Below, piece after piece: positions 25,972 to 32,694 of a DNA stretch of 64,000 bases; position 1 is the first letter of the stretch; the number at the start of each line of letters is the position of its first letter. Under the pieces are notes generated by a model. That model was not told the DNA's origin. It did not search any database and worked only from the letters and a program-made list of their open reading frames with translations. A program made the translations under genes and the position numbers. The stretch is from Methanomassiliicoccales archaeon. Its GTDB lineage: Archaea > Thermoplasmatota > Thermoplasmata > Methanomassiliicoccales > UBA472. The stretch lies in assembly GCA_028682895.1 (NCBI GenBank), contig JAJRAK010000025.1, forward strand, positions 1 through 64,000, written 5' to 3'.

Positions 25972-26034
25972 GCCCGATGCAAACCCTTTCAGCAAACCGT
26001 TTATCCTTTCACTCTTATTTTGACGGGGATACCA

Positions 26035-26922
26035 ATGAATTTTGATGTCATCATCATCGGCGCCGGCCCAGCCGGACTTCAGGCGGCCATGCACGCGTCA
26101 CGAAAGAAGGTCAAGGTATGCGTGCTCGGCAAACCGTCCAACAGCGCCCTGGAACGTGCAGAGATCGAGAACTACTTCGGCGTGGGCATGATGAAGGGGA
26201 AGGACCTGATAGAGACGAGCCTCAAGGCGGCCAAGGAGTTCGGCGCCCAGGTGCTGGAGGAGGACCTCCTGACCATCGAGATGGCGGAGGGCGGTTTCAA
26301 GCTGAAGACGGAATCGCTCCGGGAACTGACCTCTAAAGCGCTGATACTCGCCCCGGGGATATCCCGCAAGAAGCTGAACGTGGAAGGGGAAAAGGAATTC
26401 CATGGGCTGGGCGTCAGCTACTGCGCCACCTGCGATTGCAACTTCTTCAAGAAGAAGACAGTGGCCGTTCTCGGGGATGCTAGCATGGCCGCTTCGGCCG
26501 CCCTTCTGCTGAGGGAGTATGCCTCCAAGGTCTACTGGGTGGCGAAGGAGTTCACCGCCTCCCCGCAACTGATGGAGAAGGTCAAGGCCACGGACATAGA
26601 GATGGTGAAGGCCTGGCCGACCAAGATATACGGTGAGCAGACCGTGAAAGGTATGCTGCTTGACAACGGAAGGGACCTGACCTTGAACGGCGTCTTCATA
26701 GAGCTCGGCGCCAAAGGCGTCGCCGACCTGGCGATGGAAGTGAACATCTTTCCGGACGAGAACGGCTACATCGCCGTGGACCGCAGCTGCGCCACCGGAA
26801 CACCGGGCGTCTTCGCCTGCGGTGACGTGACCGGTCAGCCCTGGCAACTGGCCAAGGCCGTCGGGGAAGGGTGCGTCGCCGGTCTGGCCGCGGCCAACTA
26901 CGTCAAGAAGGAAGGCGAGTGA
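26035..26922 (+). CDS. trxB: Thioredoxin reductase-like flavoprotein
   Basis: 295 residues. GAGPAGLQAA near the N-terminus binds FAD, the redox centre is CATCDC, and GVFACGDVTGQPWQLAKAVGEG closes the FAD site. The NADPH domain is unusual: the usual second GxGxxA/S loop is AVLGDASMAAS and the HRRxxxR signature is missing (YWVAKEFTAS). Thermoplasma and F420-dependent methanogen reductases are known to lack NADPH use, so another donor is likely here. GGGGAT precedes the ATG at 26035. It lies between trxA and a regulator. Confidence 0.85.
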   Translation: MNFDVIIIGAGPAGLQAAMHASRKKVKVCVLGKPSNSALERAEIENYFGVGMMKGKDLIETSLKAAKEFGAQVLEEDLLTIEMAEGGFKLKTESLRELTSKALILAPGISRKKLNVEGEKEFHGLGVSYCATCDCNFFKKKTVAVLGDASMAASAALLLREYASKVYWVAKEFTASPQLMEKVKATDIEMVKAWPTKIYGEQTVKGMLLDNGRDLTLNGVFIELGAKGVADLAMEVNIFPDENGYIAVDRSCATGTPGVFACGDVTGQPWQLAKAVGEGCVAGLAAANYVKKEGE

Positions 26923-26926
26923 CAGC

Positions 26927-27448
26927 ATGAGCATGGTCGAGGAGCTGATGTCCGGGATACTTCGCAGCGAGGAAGGGTTCCGTGAGGCGTTGCGCAAGAT
27001 ACTGGAAGAGGAGCTCAAGATGTCAGTTCCCGAGTTCTGCGAGAAGACCGATCTCTCCTCCAGCACCATCTACAAGATATTGCAGGAGCGGCGTGAGCCG
27101 AATCTGCGCACCGTACGCGCGGTCATAAAGGGCGTACGCAAGCTGGACATGAACCCTGGTGGAGAGTTCATCGCGGTCATCGCCTCGCGTCCCGTACTGA
27201 ACAGGATCGAGGAGCGAATGATGAAGGTGGGCGAGCGAAACGTCCTGGTGAAGGAATACCCGGCCAACACCATGGAGGACGCCATCATAGCCGCGGTCAA
27301 GGCGGAGAGGGACGGCGCTCTGGCGCTGGTCTGCGCGCCAATAGTCGCACCTACCGTTGAACAAATAGTTAGGATACCCGTGTCCGTCGTTGTGCCCAAG
27401 GACAGCATGGTCCGTGCCATCGAGATGGCGGCGCAGAAGGTGCTGTGA
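26927..27448 (+). CDS. XRE-type HTH regulator with C-terminal sensory domain
   Basis: 173 residues. The HTH (about residues 29-70) reads MSVPEFCEKTDLSSSTIYKILQERREPNL. The C-terminal domain (residues 80-173) has beta/alpha strands with VLVKEYPANTMEDAIIAAVKAE, matching the archaeal predicted regulator group COG1709. It begins four bases after the thioredoxin reductase stop and is probably co-transcribed, so it may respond to redox state. It ends one base before the convergent ABC transporter gene. Confidence 0.8.
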   Translation: MSMVEELMSGILRSEEGFREALRKILEEELKMSVPEFCEKTDLSSSTIYKILQERREPNLRTVRAVIKGVRKLDMNPGGEFIAVIASRPVLNRIEERMMKVGERNVLVKEYPANTMEDAIIAAVKAERDGALALVCAPIVAPTVEQIVRIPVSVVVPKDSMVRAIEMAAQKVL

Positions 27449-28210
27449 TCAACCGTCAACTCTAACATTATCTTCTAATTGGGTCAATATCTGCTTTCTC
27501 AGAGCTGCAAACTCCGGATTAGCTCGATCTCGCGGCCTCTCCCATTTAATATTATAGATCTGACCAACACTGCCAGGTCTGGTTGTCATCACTACTATAC
27601 GATCCGCCAAGAACACAGCTTCATCTACGGAATGGGTGATAAAGATGACCGTTTTCTTTGTCTCACTCCAGATGCGTAAAAGCTCTTTCTGCATTAAATT
27701 ACGTGTCTGAGCGTCCAAAGCTCCAAACGGTTCATCCATAAGCAAAATCGCCGGTTCGTTAGCCAGGGCCCGAGCGATTCCTACGCGCTGTTTCATGCCA
27801 CCCGATAATTGATTTGGAAGATAATCTTCGAAACCTCTCAAACCGACAAGATCGATATATCTATCAGATATGAGCCTCTTTTCTTTCGGTGGTGTTTTTT
27901 TAATCTCTAGGCCGAACTCAATATTTCTTCTTACAGATCTCCAAGGGAACAATGCGAACTCCTGGAATACCATCCCCCTATCTGAGCCGGGTTTTAATGT
28001 AGGTGCGCCATTGAGTAAAAGCGCTCCGTATGTCGGTGTTTCCAGGCCAGCTATTATCCTCAATAACGTTGTTTTTCCACAACCAGATGGACCAAGGATG
28101 CAAACGAACTCACCTTCTTCAACATCAAGATTAAAATCTTCGATGGCAATCATATTGCTGCCATCCTCTTTTGGAAAGGACTTATTCAGGTGCTGTATGC
28201 TCAATATCAT
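27449..28210 (-). CDS. ABC transporter ATPase, taurine/sulfonate/nitrate type
   Basis: 253 residues. Walker A is [17 protein letters not shown], the signature [14 protein letters not shown], Walker [12 protein letters not shown], and the H-loop is in FITHSVDEA. It groups with SsuB/TauB/NrtD ATPases that energise uptake of organosulfonates, nitrate, or pyrimidine or riboflavin precursors. The ATG overlaps the permease stop by one base. It is the last gene of a leftward three-gene operon (29093-30184, 28210-29031, 27449-28210). Codon use is AT-richer than in its neighbours, suggesting recent transfer. Confidence 0.92.
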
Positions 28211-29031
28211 TAAAATCCCATCCTCTGGTTCAACTTCTTCTCTATTTGGCCCATTACTCCGGTTGTTAGTATTCCTAGGATCGCTATTACAGCAATGCCA
28301 GCGAACATCCCCGGATAATTACCGATCTGTCCTTGGATGCTGATATAATAACCTACACCTCCGCCGCGTGCACCTATCATCTCAGCAGCGACGATGCACA
28401 TCCATCCAATACCCAGGCCTATTCGTATGCCTGTCATTATGAATGGGACAGTTGACGGCAGGATCACTTTCCCAAAAATGTCAAACCGGCCAGCTCCCTG
28501 GGTCCTTGCTGCATCCAATAATACTGGATCGACGCTCTTGACACCAAAATAGACATTCGAAAGTAAAGGAAAGAAAACTCCTATGAATATGACGACGATC
28601 GGACCCCAGAATATTCCTAGTGCTAAAAGAAAGATGGGAACCCATGCGATCGGAGGTATCGGTCTGAAAACCTCGACAACGGGCTTTATTAGCATGTCTA
28701 GGAGCTTTGAAAATCCCATCAACAATCCCGCTGGTACAGCAATAATAAACGCTAGTAAGAAGCCATATGCAAATCTCTGTAACGACGAAGAGATGTTTTG
28801 CCACATATCGATACCCATCACTGGGTCGCGGTGAGTGAAGGAATTGATGAAAGCATCCCAAACCAGAAGCGGCGTTGGTAAGTATTCGGATATATAGATA
28901 TATTCAGCAATCAGCCACCATACGCCGATAAATCCCGCAAGCGATATTATTATAAATATAATCATTTTTATATTATCTAGACCAGTCGCCTTTCTTATCC
29001 ATCCATATATCAATTTATTGTCCCTGGTCAT
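28210..29031 (-). CDS. ABC transporter permease, taurine/sulfonate/nitrate type
   Basis: 273 residues, six hydrophobic segments. The EAA-like loop is in [20 protein letters not shown], followed by [33 protein letters not shown] in the cytoplasmic coupling region. It is a member of the SsuC/TauC permease family and forms the pore for substrate delivered by the binding protein. AAGGGATCA precedes the ATG at 29031. Couples to the ATPase gene through a one-base overlap. Confidence 0.92.
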
Positions 29032-29092: not shown

Positions 29093-30184
29093 TTACGCTG
29101 CTACGACATTGTATCCCTGTTGGTCTGCATAATACAATAGAAGTAGGTACTGAATCGAGCTTGGTCCTGGTACACCAACGGTCTTTCCAGCGAGATCTTC
29201 GAAGCTGGAAATCCCATCACCGACCACGATAGCAGACCCCTCTGTATTCACCAAGGCAACGATGGTCACATCAACGTTTGCGTTGATCGCCTTAAGGAGG
29301 GTTGGCGGGGCACCAAGATATCCAATGTCAATATAGTTACCCGCAAAAGCATCCATGACATCTCCTCCGCTAGGATAACCAGCTAGGTTAGGGCTTGTGA
29401 CAGTTATACCGAACTGTTCGAATATGGTGGTACCATTCCCTACGGTAGCGTTCGAAGCGACGACCCTGGCGAATTGGTGCAGATCTCCTGCAAGATATCC
29501 TACCCTGATGTTATAGGTCTCGGTCGGGTTGGATTCCAATAGCTCAATGGCCATTTCGTAATATGTCTGATTTACCAGCTGGTCGACAAAATCCGTGGCG
29601 TTGTCATATCCGCGGGCGGATAAACTGGTTGTAAACAGGTCAAGTTCCTGGTAGCTTTCAGTGTAGTTAACGAACCACGAGAGGGTTGCTTCATCGATTA
29701 AGGTGTCATATTTAATATGTGCCAATGATGCGTTCACTACCTCCTCACTTCTTCCACTGAACTGCGCTCCGATCTCTAGTAATAATGAATAATTCTCACT
29801 CTCGGGATTTTCAATGGTGTCCGTCAGCCATTCAGTCGCTACAATGAGGGCAGCGATATAGGTGGCGACAGCCTCTGGGTTATCTTCAGCATAATCCGTG
29901 TCAACAGCAAGCACACAGCATGGATGCCCCGACCAAATATCACCAGACCATATTAGTGCACTGCCAGATCCTGCCAGTATTGAGTCGGATACATATGGTT
30001 CCCAACTCACTCCTGCTGAGATAGTGCCATTTGCAATGGCCGCCTTCTGATTAACTGGTGCTACAGTTGACCAGTATATGGTCTTCGAGTCATCGTCCCC
30101 GCCCGGCATCACCGTTATGGCGACAGCCCCCACAACGACGATTGCGACAACAATTACTGCGATTATCGCTAATTTTTTCTCCAA
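29093..30184 (-). CDS. ABC transporter substrate-binding protein with permuted lobe order
   Basis: 363 residues. A membrane anchor spans residues 5-26 (signal-anchor, no clear cleavage site), then a short Gly/Asp linker. Residues 35-215 match the second half of SsuA/NMT1-type binding proteins (AGVSWEPY, HPCCVLAVD, then C-terminal helices). Residues 224-363 match their first half (NIRVGYLAGDLHQFA, DVMDAFAGNYIDIGYLGAPP, GSAIVV, DLAGKTVGVPGPSSIQYLLL) and end at the helix that normally precedes the WEPY half. It heads the transporter operon. The ligand is unknown; homologues bind sulfonates or nitrate-like anions. Confidence 0.85.
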   Translation of the reverse strand: MEKKLAIIAVIVVAIVVVGAVAITVMPGGDDDSKTIYWSTVAPVNQKAAIANGTISAGVSWEPYVSDSILAGSGSALIWSGDIWSGHPCCVLAVDTDYAEDNPEAVATYIAALIVATEWLTDTIENPESENYSLLLEIGAQFSGRSEEVVNASLAHIKYDTLIDEATLSWFVNYTESYQELDLFTTSLSARGYDNATDFVDQLVNQTYYEMAIELLESNPTETYNIRVGYLAGDLHQFARVVASNATVGNGTTIFEQFGITVTSPNLAGYPSGGDVMDAFAGNYIDIGYLGAPPTLLKAINANVDVTIVALVNTEGSAIVVGDGISSFEDLAGKTVGVPGPSSIQYLLLLYYADQQGYNVVAA

Positions 30185-30398
30185 GAGAAATTCACCTTTA
30201 TGATTAAAATCAGAGCATAATATTTAGCGTTTGTGCCCAATGAGGAAAAATTAATCCTCTTTGTCCATTTTTTTGGCCATATTACCTATCTGTACCCCGT
30301 TAACACGCATCATGCTACCCTGCGTTACTACAATTATTAAAGCCCATTCGTTAAAAAATCCTTAATAGTCCGTACATCTTAACGGTAACCTCGATATT

Positions 30399-30848
30399 AT
30401 GTTCGAACTGAATGTTGTTAGCAACACACCGCTTACGCCGGTGGAGGACCTCAGGGACGCCTCATTGCAGTTCCTCAAGCAAATAGGATACATATCCAAG
30501 GGCTACGACCCGAAGACCGACGTGGACGATATTCAGGAGAGCATACCATACCGTCTGTTCACCGAATGCTTCCTGGGCAACCTGAACCGGGTATGGGCCG
30601 TGGAGGAGCTTTCCGCCTACCTCAGCACCACCAAGCCGACGGTGTACAGGCACCTGAACAAGTTGAAGGCCATTGACGTCCTGGAGGACGTCTCCATCGA
30701 GATAGACGGTCAGAAGAAGAAAGGGTACCGCGTAAGGTACGGGGACATGGGCAAGGCATGGAGCTTCACCGAGGCCAACGTCGAGCTGGCCATGCAGTCC
30801 TATAGAAAGACGGTCGAGCACCTGCAGCGCCTGGCCAAGGAGGGCTGA
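30399..30848 (+). CDS. HTH regulator
   Basis: 149 residues. The HTH core is VWAVEELSAYLSTTKPTVYRHLNKLKAIDVLED, with a basic wing at KKKGYRV and a C-terminal helix. It resembles ArsR/MarR-type archaeal winged helices. A TTAATAG box near 30360-30367 lies about 30 bases before the ATG, consistent with a leaderless start. It is divergent from the permuted binding-protein operon, so it may regulate it. Couples with a small gene two bases downstream. Confidence 0.8.
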   Translation: MFELNVVSNTPLTPVEDLRDASLQFLKQIGYISKGYDPKTDVDDIQESIPYRLFTECFLGNLNRVWAVEELSAYLSTTKPTVYRHLNKLKAIDVLEDVSIEIDGQKKKGYRVRYGDMGKAWSFTEANVELAMQSYRKTVEHLQRLAKEG

Positions 30849-31111: not shown

Positions 31112-31146
31112 GCAGGGTTTAATAACCGCTCGGTCTAGAGGTGTCC

Positions 31147-32694
31147 ATGGACCGCCGCCAGGAATACCACCAGCACCTGATCCGTCTCCTTCTTTATGGG
31201 GAGATCGGGGACAAGGACGAGCTGCAGCGGCGGAAGGTCAAGATGAGCGGCGAGTACGGACTGCCAGAGGTCCCGCGCAACTCAGAGACGCTGGCGCTTG
31301 TGCGCCCGGAGGACCTGCCGAAGGTGCGCGAGATACTGCGACGCAAACCGGTGAGGACGCTGAGCGGTGTGGCGGTCGTGGCGGTCATGACCTCCCCGGC
31401 GCCATGTCCTCACGGAAAATGCACCTACTGCCCCGGGGGCGTGGAGAACAATTCCCCGCAGTCGTACACTGGGAAGGAACCGGCGGCGCGCCGGGCGGCC
31501 GACAATGAGTTCGACCCGTTCCGACAGGCCAGGTCCCGCATGGAACAGCTGTCGGCCATCGGGCATCATACCGACAAGATCGACCTCATCATCATGGGCG
31601 GGACGTTCACCTCCCGACCGTTGGAGTACCAGGAGTGGTTCGTGAAGCGGTGCTTCGACGCCTTCAACGGACGCGACTCCGACGTATTGGAGGAAGCACA
31701 GCTTCTGAACGAGGCCGCGGAGCATCGGGTCATCGGCATGACGGTGGAGACCAGGCCCGATTCCCTGACGCCCGACGTGGCCAAGGGCTGCATGCGGCTG
31801 GGCACCACCCGGGTGGAGATGGGAGTGCAGATACTAGACGATGATATTCTAACCGCGGTCAACCGCGGTCACGGGGTGAAGGAGGTGGCCGAGGCGACGC
31901 GAACGGCCAGGGACCTCGGGCTGAAGGTCTGCTATCATATCATGCCCGGACTTCCCGGCTCCGGCCCGGTGAAGGACCTAGCGTCCTTCGCCCAGATGTT
32001 CAGCGATCCGCGCTTCCGGCCGGACATGATCAAGATATATCCCACCCTGGTGGTCAAGGGTACGAAGCTCTACGATTCCTGGCTGAGGGGCGAGTACCGT
32101 CCCTACGACACCGACCAAGCGGTGCACGTCATATCGGAGATGAAGAAGCTGGTGCCCGAGTACGTACGTATACAGCGGATACAGCGCGATATCCCGGTGC
32201 CGCTGATAGAGGCCGGTGTGGACAAAGGCCACCTGCGGGAACTGGCCAAGGAGCGATTACGGACGCAAGGGACAGGATGTAAGTGCATCCGTTGCCGCGA
32301 GGTCGGTTTGCTCGGATTGAACGACTTCTCAATGGACGACCTTGTTCCTAAGGTTATATCGTACGAGGCCGCCGGCGGCCGGGAGGAGTTCATCTCACTG
32401 GTACTGGATAAGAACGCCCTGGCCGGTTACGCCCGATTGAGGCTTCCGCCGTCGGGGGACGCTCTGGTTCGTGAGCTGAAGGTCTTCGGCCGCATGGCCC
32501 GGCTGAGCGAGAAGGAGGGTGAGTGGCAGCACCGTGGCATCGGAAGAAGGCTCCTGGCCATGGCCGAGTCCTCGGCGATCGATGATGGCCGTCGCGGAAT
32601 AAAGGTCACCAGCGGCGTCGGTGTCCGCGGATATTATTCATCCCTAGGTTACGAAAAAGAGCTGCCATACATGAGAAAGGTACTCAAAGGATGA
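31147..32694 (+). CDS. elp3: tRNA uridine-34 carboxymethyltransferase/acetyltransferase Elp3
   Basis: 515 residues. The radical SAM cysteines lie in CPHGKCTYCPGG (about residues 88-99). A SAM-binding region and the substrate loop around HIMPGLPGSGP follow, and a GNAT acetyltransferase domain ends the protein, with the acetyl-CoA motif HRGIGRRLLAMAE. Elp3 makes the cm5U-type modification of wobble uridines from acetyl-CoA. A TTTAATAAC box at 31117-31125 lies 26 bases before the ATG at 31147, suggesting leaderless translation; GTG 31141 is the alternative. Full length. Confidence 0.93.
   Translation: MDRRQEYHQHLIRLLLYGEIGDKDELQRRKVKMSGEYGLPEVPRNSETLALVRPEDLPKVREILRRKPVRTLSGVAVVAVMTSPAPCPHGKCTYCPGGVENNSPQSYTGKEPAARRAADNEFDPFRQARSRMEQLSAIGHHTDKIDLIIMGGTFTSRPLEYQEWFVKRCFDAFNGRDSDVLEEAQLLNEAAEHRVIGMTVETRPDSLTPDVAKGCMRLGTTRVEMGVQILDDDILTAVNRGHGVKEVAEATRTARDLGLKVCYHIMPGLPGSGPVKDLASFAQMFSDPRFRPDMIKIYPTLVVKGTKLYDSWLRGEYRPYDTDQAVHVISEMKKLVPEYVRIQRIQRDIPVPLIEAGVDKGHLRELAKERLRTQGTGCKCIRCREVGLLGLNDFSMDDLVPKVISYEAAGGREEFISLVLDKNALAGYARLRLPPSGDALVRELKVFGRMARLSEKEGEWQHRGIGRRLLAMAESSAIDDGRRGIKVTSGVGVRGYYSSLGYEKELPYMRKVLKG

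Follow-up and report, generated by a model that had tools for sequence, protein, structure and literature searches.

Introduction

The closest described relatives of the protein examined here, which is encoded in a 64,000-nucleotide stretch of DNA from a methane-producing archaeon of the order Methanomassiliicoccales (the window, meaning the whole stretch that was analysed), are the substrate-binding proteins (SBPs) of the SsuA/TauA/NrtA type (cluster F, type II). It shares with them the WEP motif and homology in both halves, and its operon, like their systems, pairs the SBP with a TauC/NtrB-type permease and an NtrCD-type ATPase. In contrast to these SBPs, it has its halves swapped, does not reach the SsuA and TauA cut-offs of NCBIfam and carries an HPCC pair. 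By score, the nearest named models for the SBP and its partners are SaoX (NF040735) and the taurine ABC systems (TIGR01729), but all scores fall well below the cut-offs and the chain order differs.

Permuted SBPs are already known elsewhere, and most natural circular permutations are, to our knowledge, described as one-off, ancient events that separate distantly related proteins. OpuAC, the glycine-betaine SBP of Bacillus and Lactococcus, and ProX have been reported to be circular permutants of one another (PMC2395249). Like the window SBP, OpuAC is a natural permutation within the type II fold, and it gives the best Foldseek matches to our model, but it belongs to another ligand family, has one reported cut and contributes no profile to the Pfam matches of the window SBP at E values up to 1. 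Its cut presumably lies near the hinge point called P3 below and not at that of the window protein (P1), and we know of no series of cuts for OpuAC. TpMglB-2 (Tp0684) of Treponema pallidum is a naturally permuted, tethered and working SBP, for which the authors discuss tethering as a reason (PMC4990184). The window SBP, whose function is predicted, is likewise permuted and tethered, whereas TpMglB-2 has a type I (cluster B) fold, binds glucose and occurs in a single permuted order. For the family of the window SBP, no report of permutation was found in the open-access literature. What is new here is the number of orders within one orthologous family, together with repeats, apparent reversals and intermediates at the same locus.

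The binding protein and its chain order

The SBP gene occupies 29093..30184 on the minus strand and encodes 363 amino acids; the plus strand holds no long frame over these positions. A TTG start codon at 30184 is preceded, 7 bases ahead, by a Shine-Dalgarno-like AGGTGA read directly from the same strand (30192..30197). Residues 2-24 (30113..30181) form a hydrophobic helix, seen in the sequence and in the model, which is a putative membrane or signal anchor and is followed by an acidic stretch; an anchor-like N-terminal stretch of this kind is present in all chain orders inspected. As delimited by profiles, segment N (residues 34-215; 29540..30085) corresponds to the canonical C-terminal half and stands in first place. 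It contains the WEPY motif (residues 61-64; 29993..30004) and the adjacent cysteines of the HPCC motif (residues 87-90; 29915..29926); WEP and HPCC are invariant in 38 permuted homologues. A linker of residues 216-223 (29516..29539), lying between helix 207-215 and strand 224-229 of the model, joins the canonical C and N termini. It leads into segment C1 (residues 224-303; 29276..29515), the canonical N-terminal lobe I, which runs from IRVGYLAGDLHQ to PPTLLKAIN. Segment C2 (residues 304-363; 29096..29275), with the hinge and the first part of lobe II, comes last and contains NTEGSAIVV, LAGKTV and PGPSSIQ. All of these features are on the minus strand.

The first-pass annotation had proposed a circularly permuted SsuA/NMT1-type protein from the positions of WEPY (61-64), PCCVL (88-92), IRVGY (226-230) and LAGKTV (331-336), all of which we find where it placed them. 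Aligned separately to SBP profiles, the two halves come out in swapped order, and matches to Pfam, NCBIfam and solved structures all run in the exchanged sense. Protein residues 31-123 match positions 149-241 of 252 in NMT1_2 (PF13379, E 3.9e-23), residues 271-357 match positions 29-116 of 216 in NMT1 (PF09084), and residues 38-125 match positions 134-221 of 290 in TIGR01728 (E 3.5e-26). TauA (6ssy) aligns in two pieces of opposite order, and none of the solved structures matched by sequence has the permuted order (TauA compared in full, the others by the listed stretches). Scores for NMT1_2 (83 bits against a curated cut-off of 24.7) and NMT1 (24.4 against 20.5) place the protein in these families. 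The SsuA and taurine equivalog cut-offs are not reached (TIGR01728, 92.1 against 163.5 bits; TIGR01729, 60.2 against 304.25). Of the features expected of SsuA/TauA/NMT1-like SBPs, the operon with permease and ATPase is present and the canonical chain order is not. With its halves exchanged within one chain, and this conserved over homologues, reading the protein as a circular permutation of an SsuA/NMT1-type SBP is supported at the level of sequence.

A model of the full chain built with AlphaFold2 from 38 permuted sequences reached a pLDDT of 94.4 and a pTM of 0.87. Foldseek, which aligns in sequence order, ranked OpuAC first (TM about 0.45 by target, 11-13% identity), with TauA and SsuA missing from the 50 matches listed; such a ranking is expected of a permuted chain, because OpuAC is itself a reported permutant of other betaine-binding proteins. 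A viral fold library gave no relevant match. The halves of different chains could instead associate, giving a domain-swapped dimer or polymer, and swapped dimers do exist among type II SBPs of other families, while tandem and fused forms occur in this one (L034, L038-L041). We consider this improbable, since the confident prediction is that of a monomer, with the canonical termini joined by a linker of 12-14 residues (median 14 among P1 linkers).

The reading that we prefer, to which we give a probability of roughly 0.86, is that of a working, anchored, permuted type II cluster F SBP of an ABC importer, whose chain order has moved repeatedly at one locus. In such a protein the canonical termini would be joined by the short linker, and the new termini would lie in lobe II between the helix that follows PGPSSIQ and the strand ahead of WEPY, which agrees with the break first proposed. 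Both lobes would still close on the ligand in the same cleft and pass it on to the neighbouring permease and ATPase, and lobe II would now be the one that bears the membrane tether.

Homologues and other chain orders

Matches were found in 134 of the 150 relatives searched. In about 35 other genomes the homologues, 42-55% identical, align without a break in order along almost all of the permuted chain, and more than 60 homologues share the order, so that it is neither a chance product nor an accident of assembly. A profile scan of public genomes, which used GDLHQFAR and HPCCV-like motifs as seeds and does not measure the whole distribution, recovered the same order from records named as Methanomassiliicoccales, Archaeoglobus, Geoglobus, Methanoperedens, Thermincola and other Bacillota, and from an Undinarchaeales metagenome-assembled genome. 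The family is present in almost all sampled Methanomassiliicoccales genomes and rare in the rest of the phylum; the permuted form, expected at first to be unusual, is the common one in this order.

A mis-assembly or chimera at the junction of N and C1, which the first-pass annotation had kept as a rival, might be suspected in a source genome assembled in 63 contigs. It is ruled out by the colinear full-length homologues, which come from dozens of independent assemblies and include those in records named Methanoperedens nitroreducens Mnv1 and Thermoplasmata bin33 chromosome, and contradicted further by a further permuted form (P4, below) in a one-contig genome (G058).

To read the order at each locus, the window protein was cut into segments N (34-215), C1 (222-303) and C2 (304-360), and segment profiles were applied. 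Five chain orders were found in the wider family: canonical (C1-C2-N), P1 (N-C1-C2, as in the window), P2 (C2-N-C1), which is family f2 of gut-type lineages, P3, with a hinge cut inside C2 (Theionarchaea, L102 and L107), and P4, cut after the WEPY helix (L162, L165 and L142). The census gave 67 P1, 35 P2, 22 canonical, four tandem P2, one tandem P1, two P3 and two P4, counts which include near-copies from the same genomes. L142 was counted as P1 by the program and is read by us as P4, as its chain opens with the HTCC strand and closes with IIWEAQYSVGLA. Expressed in window numbering, the cut points are 363/34 (P1), 302-305 (P2), 322-327 (P3) and 72-74 (P4), with the canonical termini at 216-223; against the predicted secondary structure all five lie in loops, four of them between a helix and the following strand. 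Sixteen gut genomes, mostly with one or two copies of the family each, revealed no new cut points when read from the listed match ranges. Whatever the order, most units retain WEP, HxCC, DxHQ and NxEGS; HPCC occurs in each of the 22 canonical-order units and in the majority of the permuted ones. One P1 SBP (L049:2587-3682, G035) is split over two overlapping frames, by a frameshift or a sequencing error.

Conserved locus and history of the order

The cassette has the same address across Methanomassiliicoccales. In the window it reads: a thioredoxin-reductase-like flavoprotein (26020..26922, plus strand), a helix-turn-helix (HTH) protein (26927..27448, plus), the ATPase (27449..28210, minus), the permease (28210..29031, minus), the SBP, a divergent winged-HTH-like regulator (30399..30848, plus) and an Elp3-like protein (31141..32694, plus). 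The flavoprotein, the regulator and the Elp3-like protein were recognised by sequence and synteny and flank the shared address; the Elp3 gene also served as neighbour marker in a tree. At this address most genomes have a P1 SBP, three have a canonical one (G015, G018 and G038) and one has a tandem P1 (G002). In G054 a P2 gene adjoins the ATPase, HTH and thioredoxin-reductase genes, the other flank being off the contig.

An SBP tree was built from 95 units, all rotated to canonical order, with the root assumed on Asgard-type canonical sequences. In it P2 and P4 form one group (98/90, starred) within P1 (100/97 and 100/99, both starred), and the starred branches indicate that P2 and P4 arose inside P1 with the nesting P1 > P2 > P4. 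With tandem units scored as P1 or P2 and L142 as P4, at least nine order changes are needed. AU tests rejected a single origin of P1 (p 2e-53), of the canonical order (p 7.6e-6) and of P4 (p 4.5e-7), p values which are optimistic because the groups were named after part of the data had been seen. From the last of these it follows that P4 arose twice.

As to reversals, the SBP tree leaves the matter unsettled, since canonical L031 and L033 branch immediately outside the Methanomassiliicoccales P1 group, at weakly supported nodes (94/59 and 91/45). In the quick Elp3 tree, canonical G015 and G018 join their congener G021, which has P1, and canonical G038 falls inside the P1 genus g18 (99, starred, in each case); such placements suggest that the old order was regained. 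In the permease/ATPase tree, canonical L031 and L032 group with the P1 cassettes L176 and L189 (97, starred). The junction of canonical L032, where C2 meets N, reads NVKLDGT-DGDDDT-VFYVQ and looks like a P1 C-terminus (KLxGT) joined to a P1 post-anchor linker; the protein starts with ENKTYDVRVGYL, similar to the internal TETYNIRVGYL of the window protein. Such junction scars are few and short, and canonical L126 also has a junction of 10 residues. Most simply, the canonical order would apparently have been restored twice.

Alternatively, the canonical genes of G015, G018 and G038 could represent the ancestral order or have been transferred, with P1 arising repeatedly and no reversal. The position of L031 and L033 in the SBP tree would fit, and cassette exchange occurs: within genus g1, the permease/ATPase cassettes of G003 and G008 and of the window fall in different parts of the tree, although the Elp3 genes remain grouped, a pattern that suggests exchange between strains at a fixed address. 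This account is rather unlikely in view of the Elp3 nesting, the permease/ATPase grouping and the scars resembling P1 termini. We hold it to be probable that an orthologous SBP at one address has repeatedly changed its order by tandem fusion and trimming, giving at least five orders in the family, independent reuse of one cut and apparent returns.

A probable route: tandem fusion and trimming

One gene of G002, a genome of the window's genus, is a tandem P1 of 709 amino acids (L027/L034/L060; L027/L034:4297-6426). Its first unit has lost WEP, HPCC, DxHQ and NxEGS and sits on a long branch, and its second unit is intact, so that it looks like the expected intermediate of permutation by duplication. 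In genus g21 (L038-L041), two full P2 units are fused into one anchored chain of 750 residues, with most motifs kept in both units and a single permease and a single ATPase downstream.

Tandem duplication followed by loss of the outer halves had been offered as an alternative to permutation; we retain it as the likely route and not as a true rival, in view of the decaying tandem in a congener. The permuted order would have originated by in-frame tandem fusion of two copies, each then losing one outer part, and an in-frame P1 tandem would include all other orders as internal stretches. The decayed G002 tandem, at the same locus, fits such duplication and trimming. Repeated rounds, in each of which the N-terminal anchor was retained, may have shifted the cut from P1 to P2 and, on two occasions, from there to P4, and the canonical order would have been regained at least twice, all at one conserved locus. 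That the window gene is instead what is left of a tandem duplication and is now decaying is a possibility raised by the degenerate copies, namely the first G002 unit and two fused proteins that have lost HPCC (L035 and L036). We give it very little weight, as the window copy keeps all invariant residues, a ribosome-binding site and an intact operon, in a family present in most Methanomassiliicoccales genomes.

With several cut points, repeated and apparently reversed changes, and tandem intermediates at the same locus in congeners, the model of permutation by duplication becomes testable step by step. If our reading is right, the family amounts to a natural circular-permutation scan in which segment order is a changeable trait, a natural test of tether position in binding proteins and a source of cut points for sensor design. 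On the practical side, profile searches and annotation will misread permuted SBPs as two partial domains.

Operon partners and putative function

As first noted, the partners of the SBP are normal. The permease, next gene of the operon, and the ATPase match PF00528 and PF00005, respectively, in ordinary canonical fashion; TauC, SaoP and NtrB models match the permease only below cut-off, as do SaoA and NtrCD models the ATPase. Among 63 loci, the permease is present in 57 and the ATPase in 56. The HTH protein is without a Pfam match; its family adjoins the cassette in 19 of the 63 loci, and it is probably the regulator of the cassette. Linkage of this HTH family to the cassette extends from Methanomassiliicoccales to Archaeoglobus and Methanoperedens.

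Fold and operon point to ABC import of a small solute. In Geoglobus the permuted cassette lies beside genes for MtrH, URO-D, B12-binding and RACo-type proteins, in Thermincola beside those for MtrH and URO-D, and in the gut P2 genomes beside cobW and RACo-type genes; corrinoid-methyltransferase or cobW neighbours were seen at L084, L091, L077, L093, L043, L044, L104 and L109. The corrinoid-methyltransferase genes next to the cassette in some lineages are a hint of one-carbon metabolism. We tentatively favour a solute from one-carbon or corrinoid metabolism, and after it anions that resemble sulfonate or nitrate. The invariant adjacent cysteines of HPCC lie close to the WEP strand and might contact the ligand, which is a guess. 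Coenzyme M import was considered for this sulfonate-like family and found no support here, coenzyme M synthesis having been inferred in the three genomes studied (PMC4153887). Methoxyaromatic uptake, considered for the Mto-like neighbours in Geoglobus, was set aside, as this role is assigned to named MFS carriers (PMC8359953).

Finally, in L035:4668-7379 (G014) and L036 (G017) a P1-type SBP domain is fused to several fibronectin-III-like repeats, in L035 with a C-terminal membrane helix as well. These would be surface proteins derived from a transporter component.
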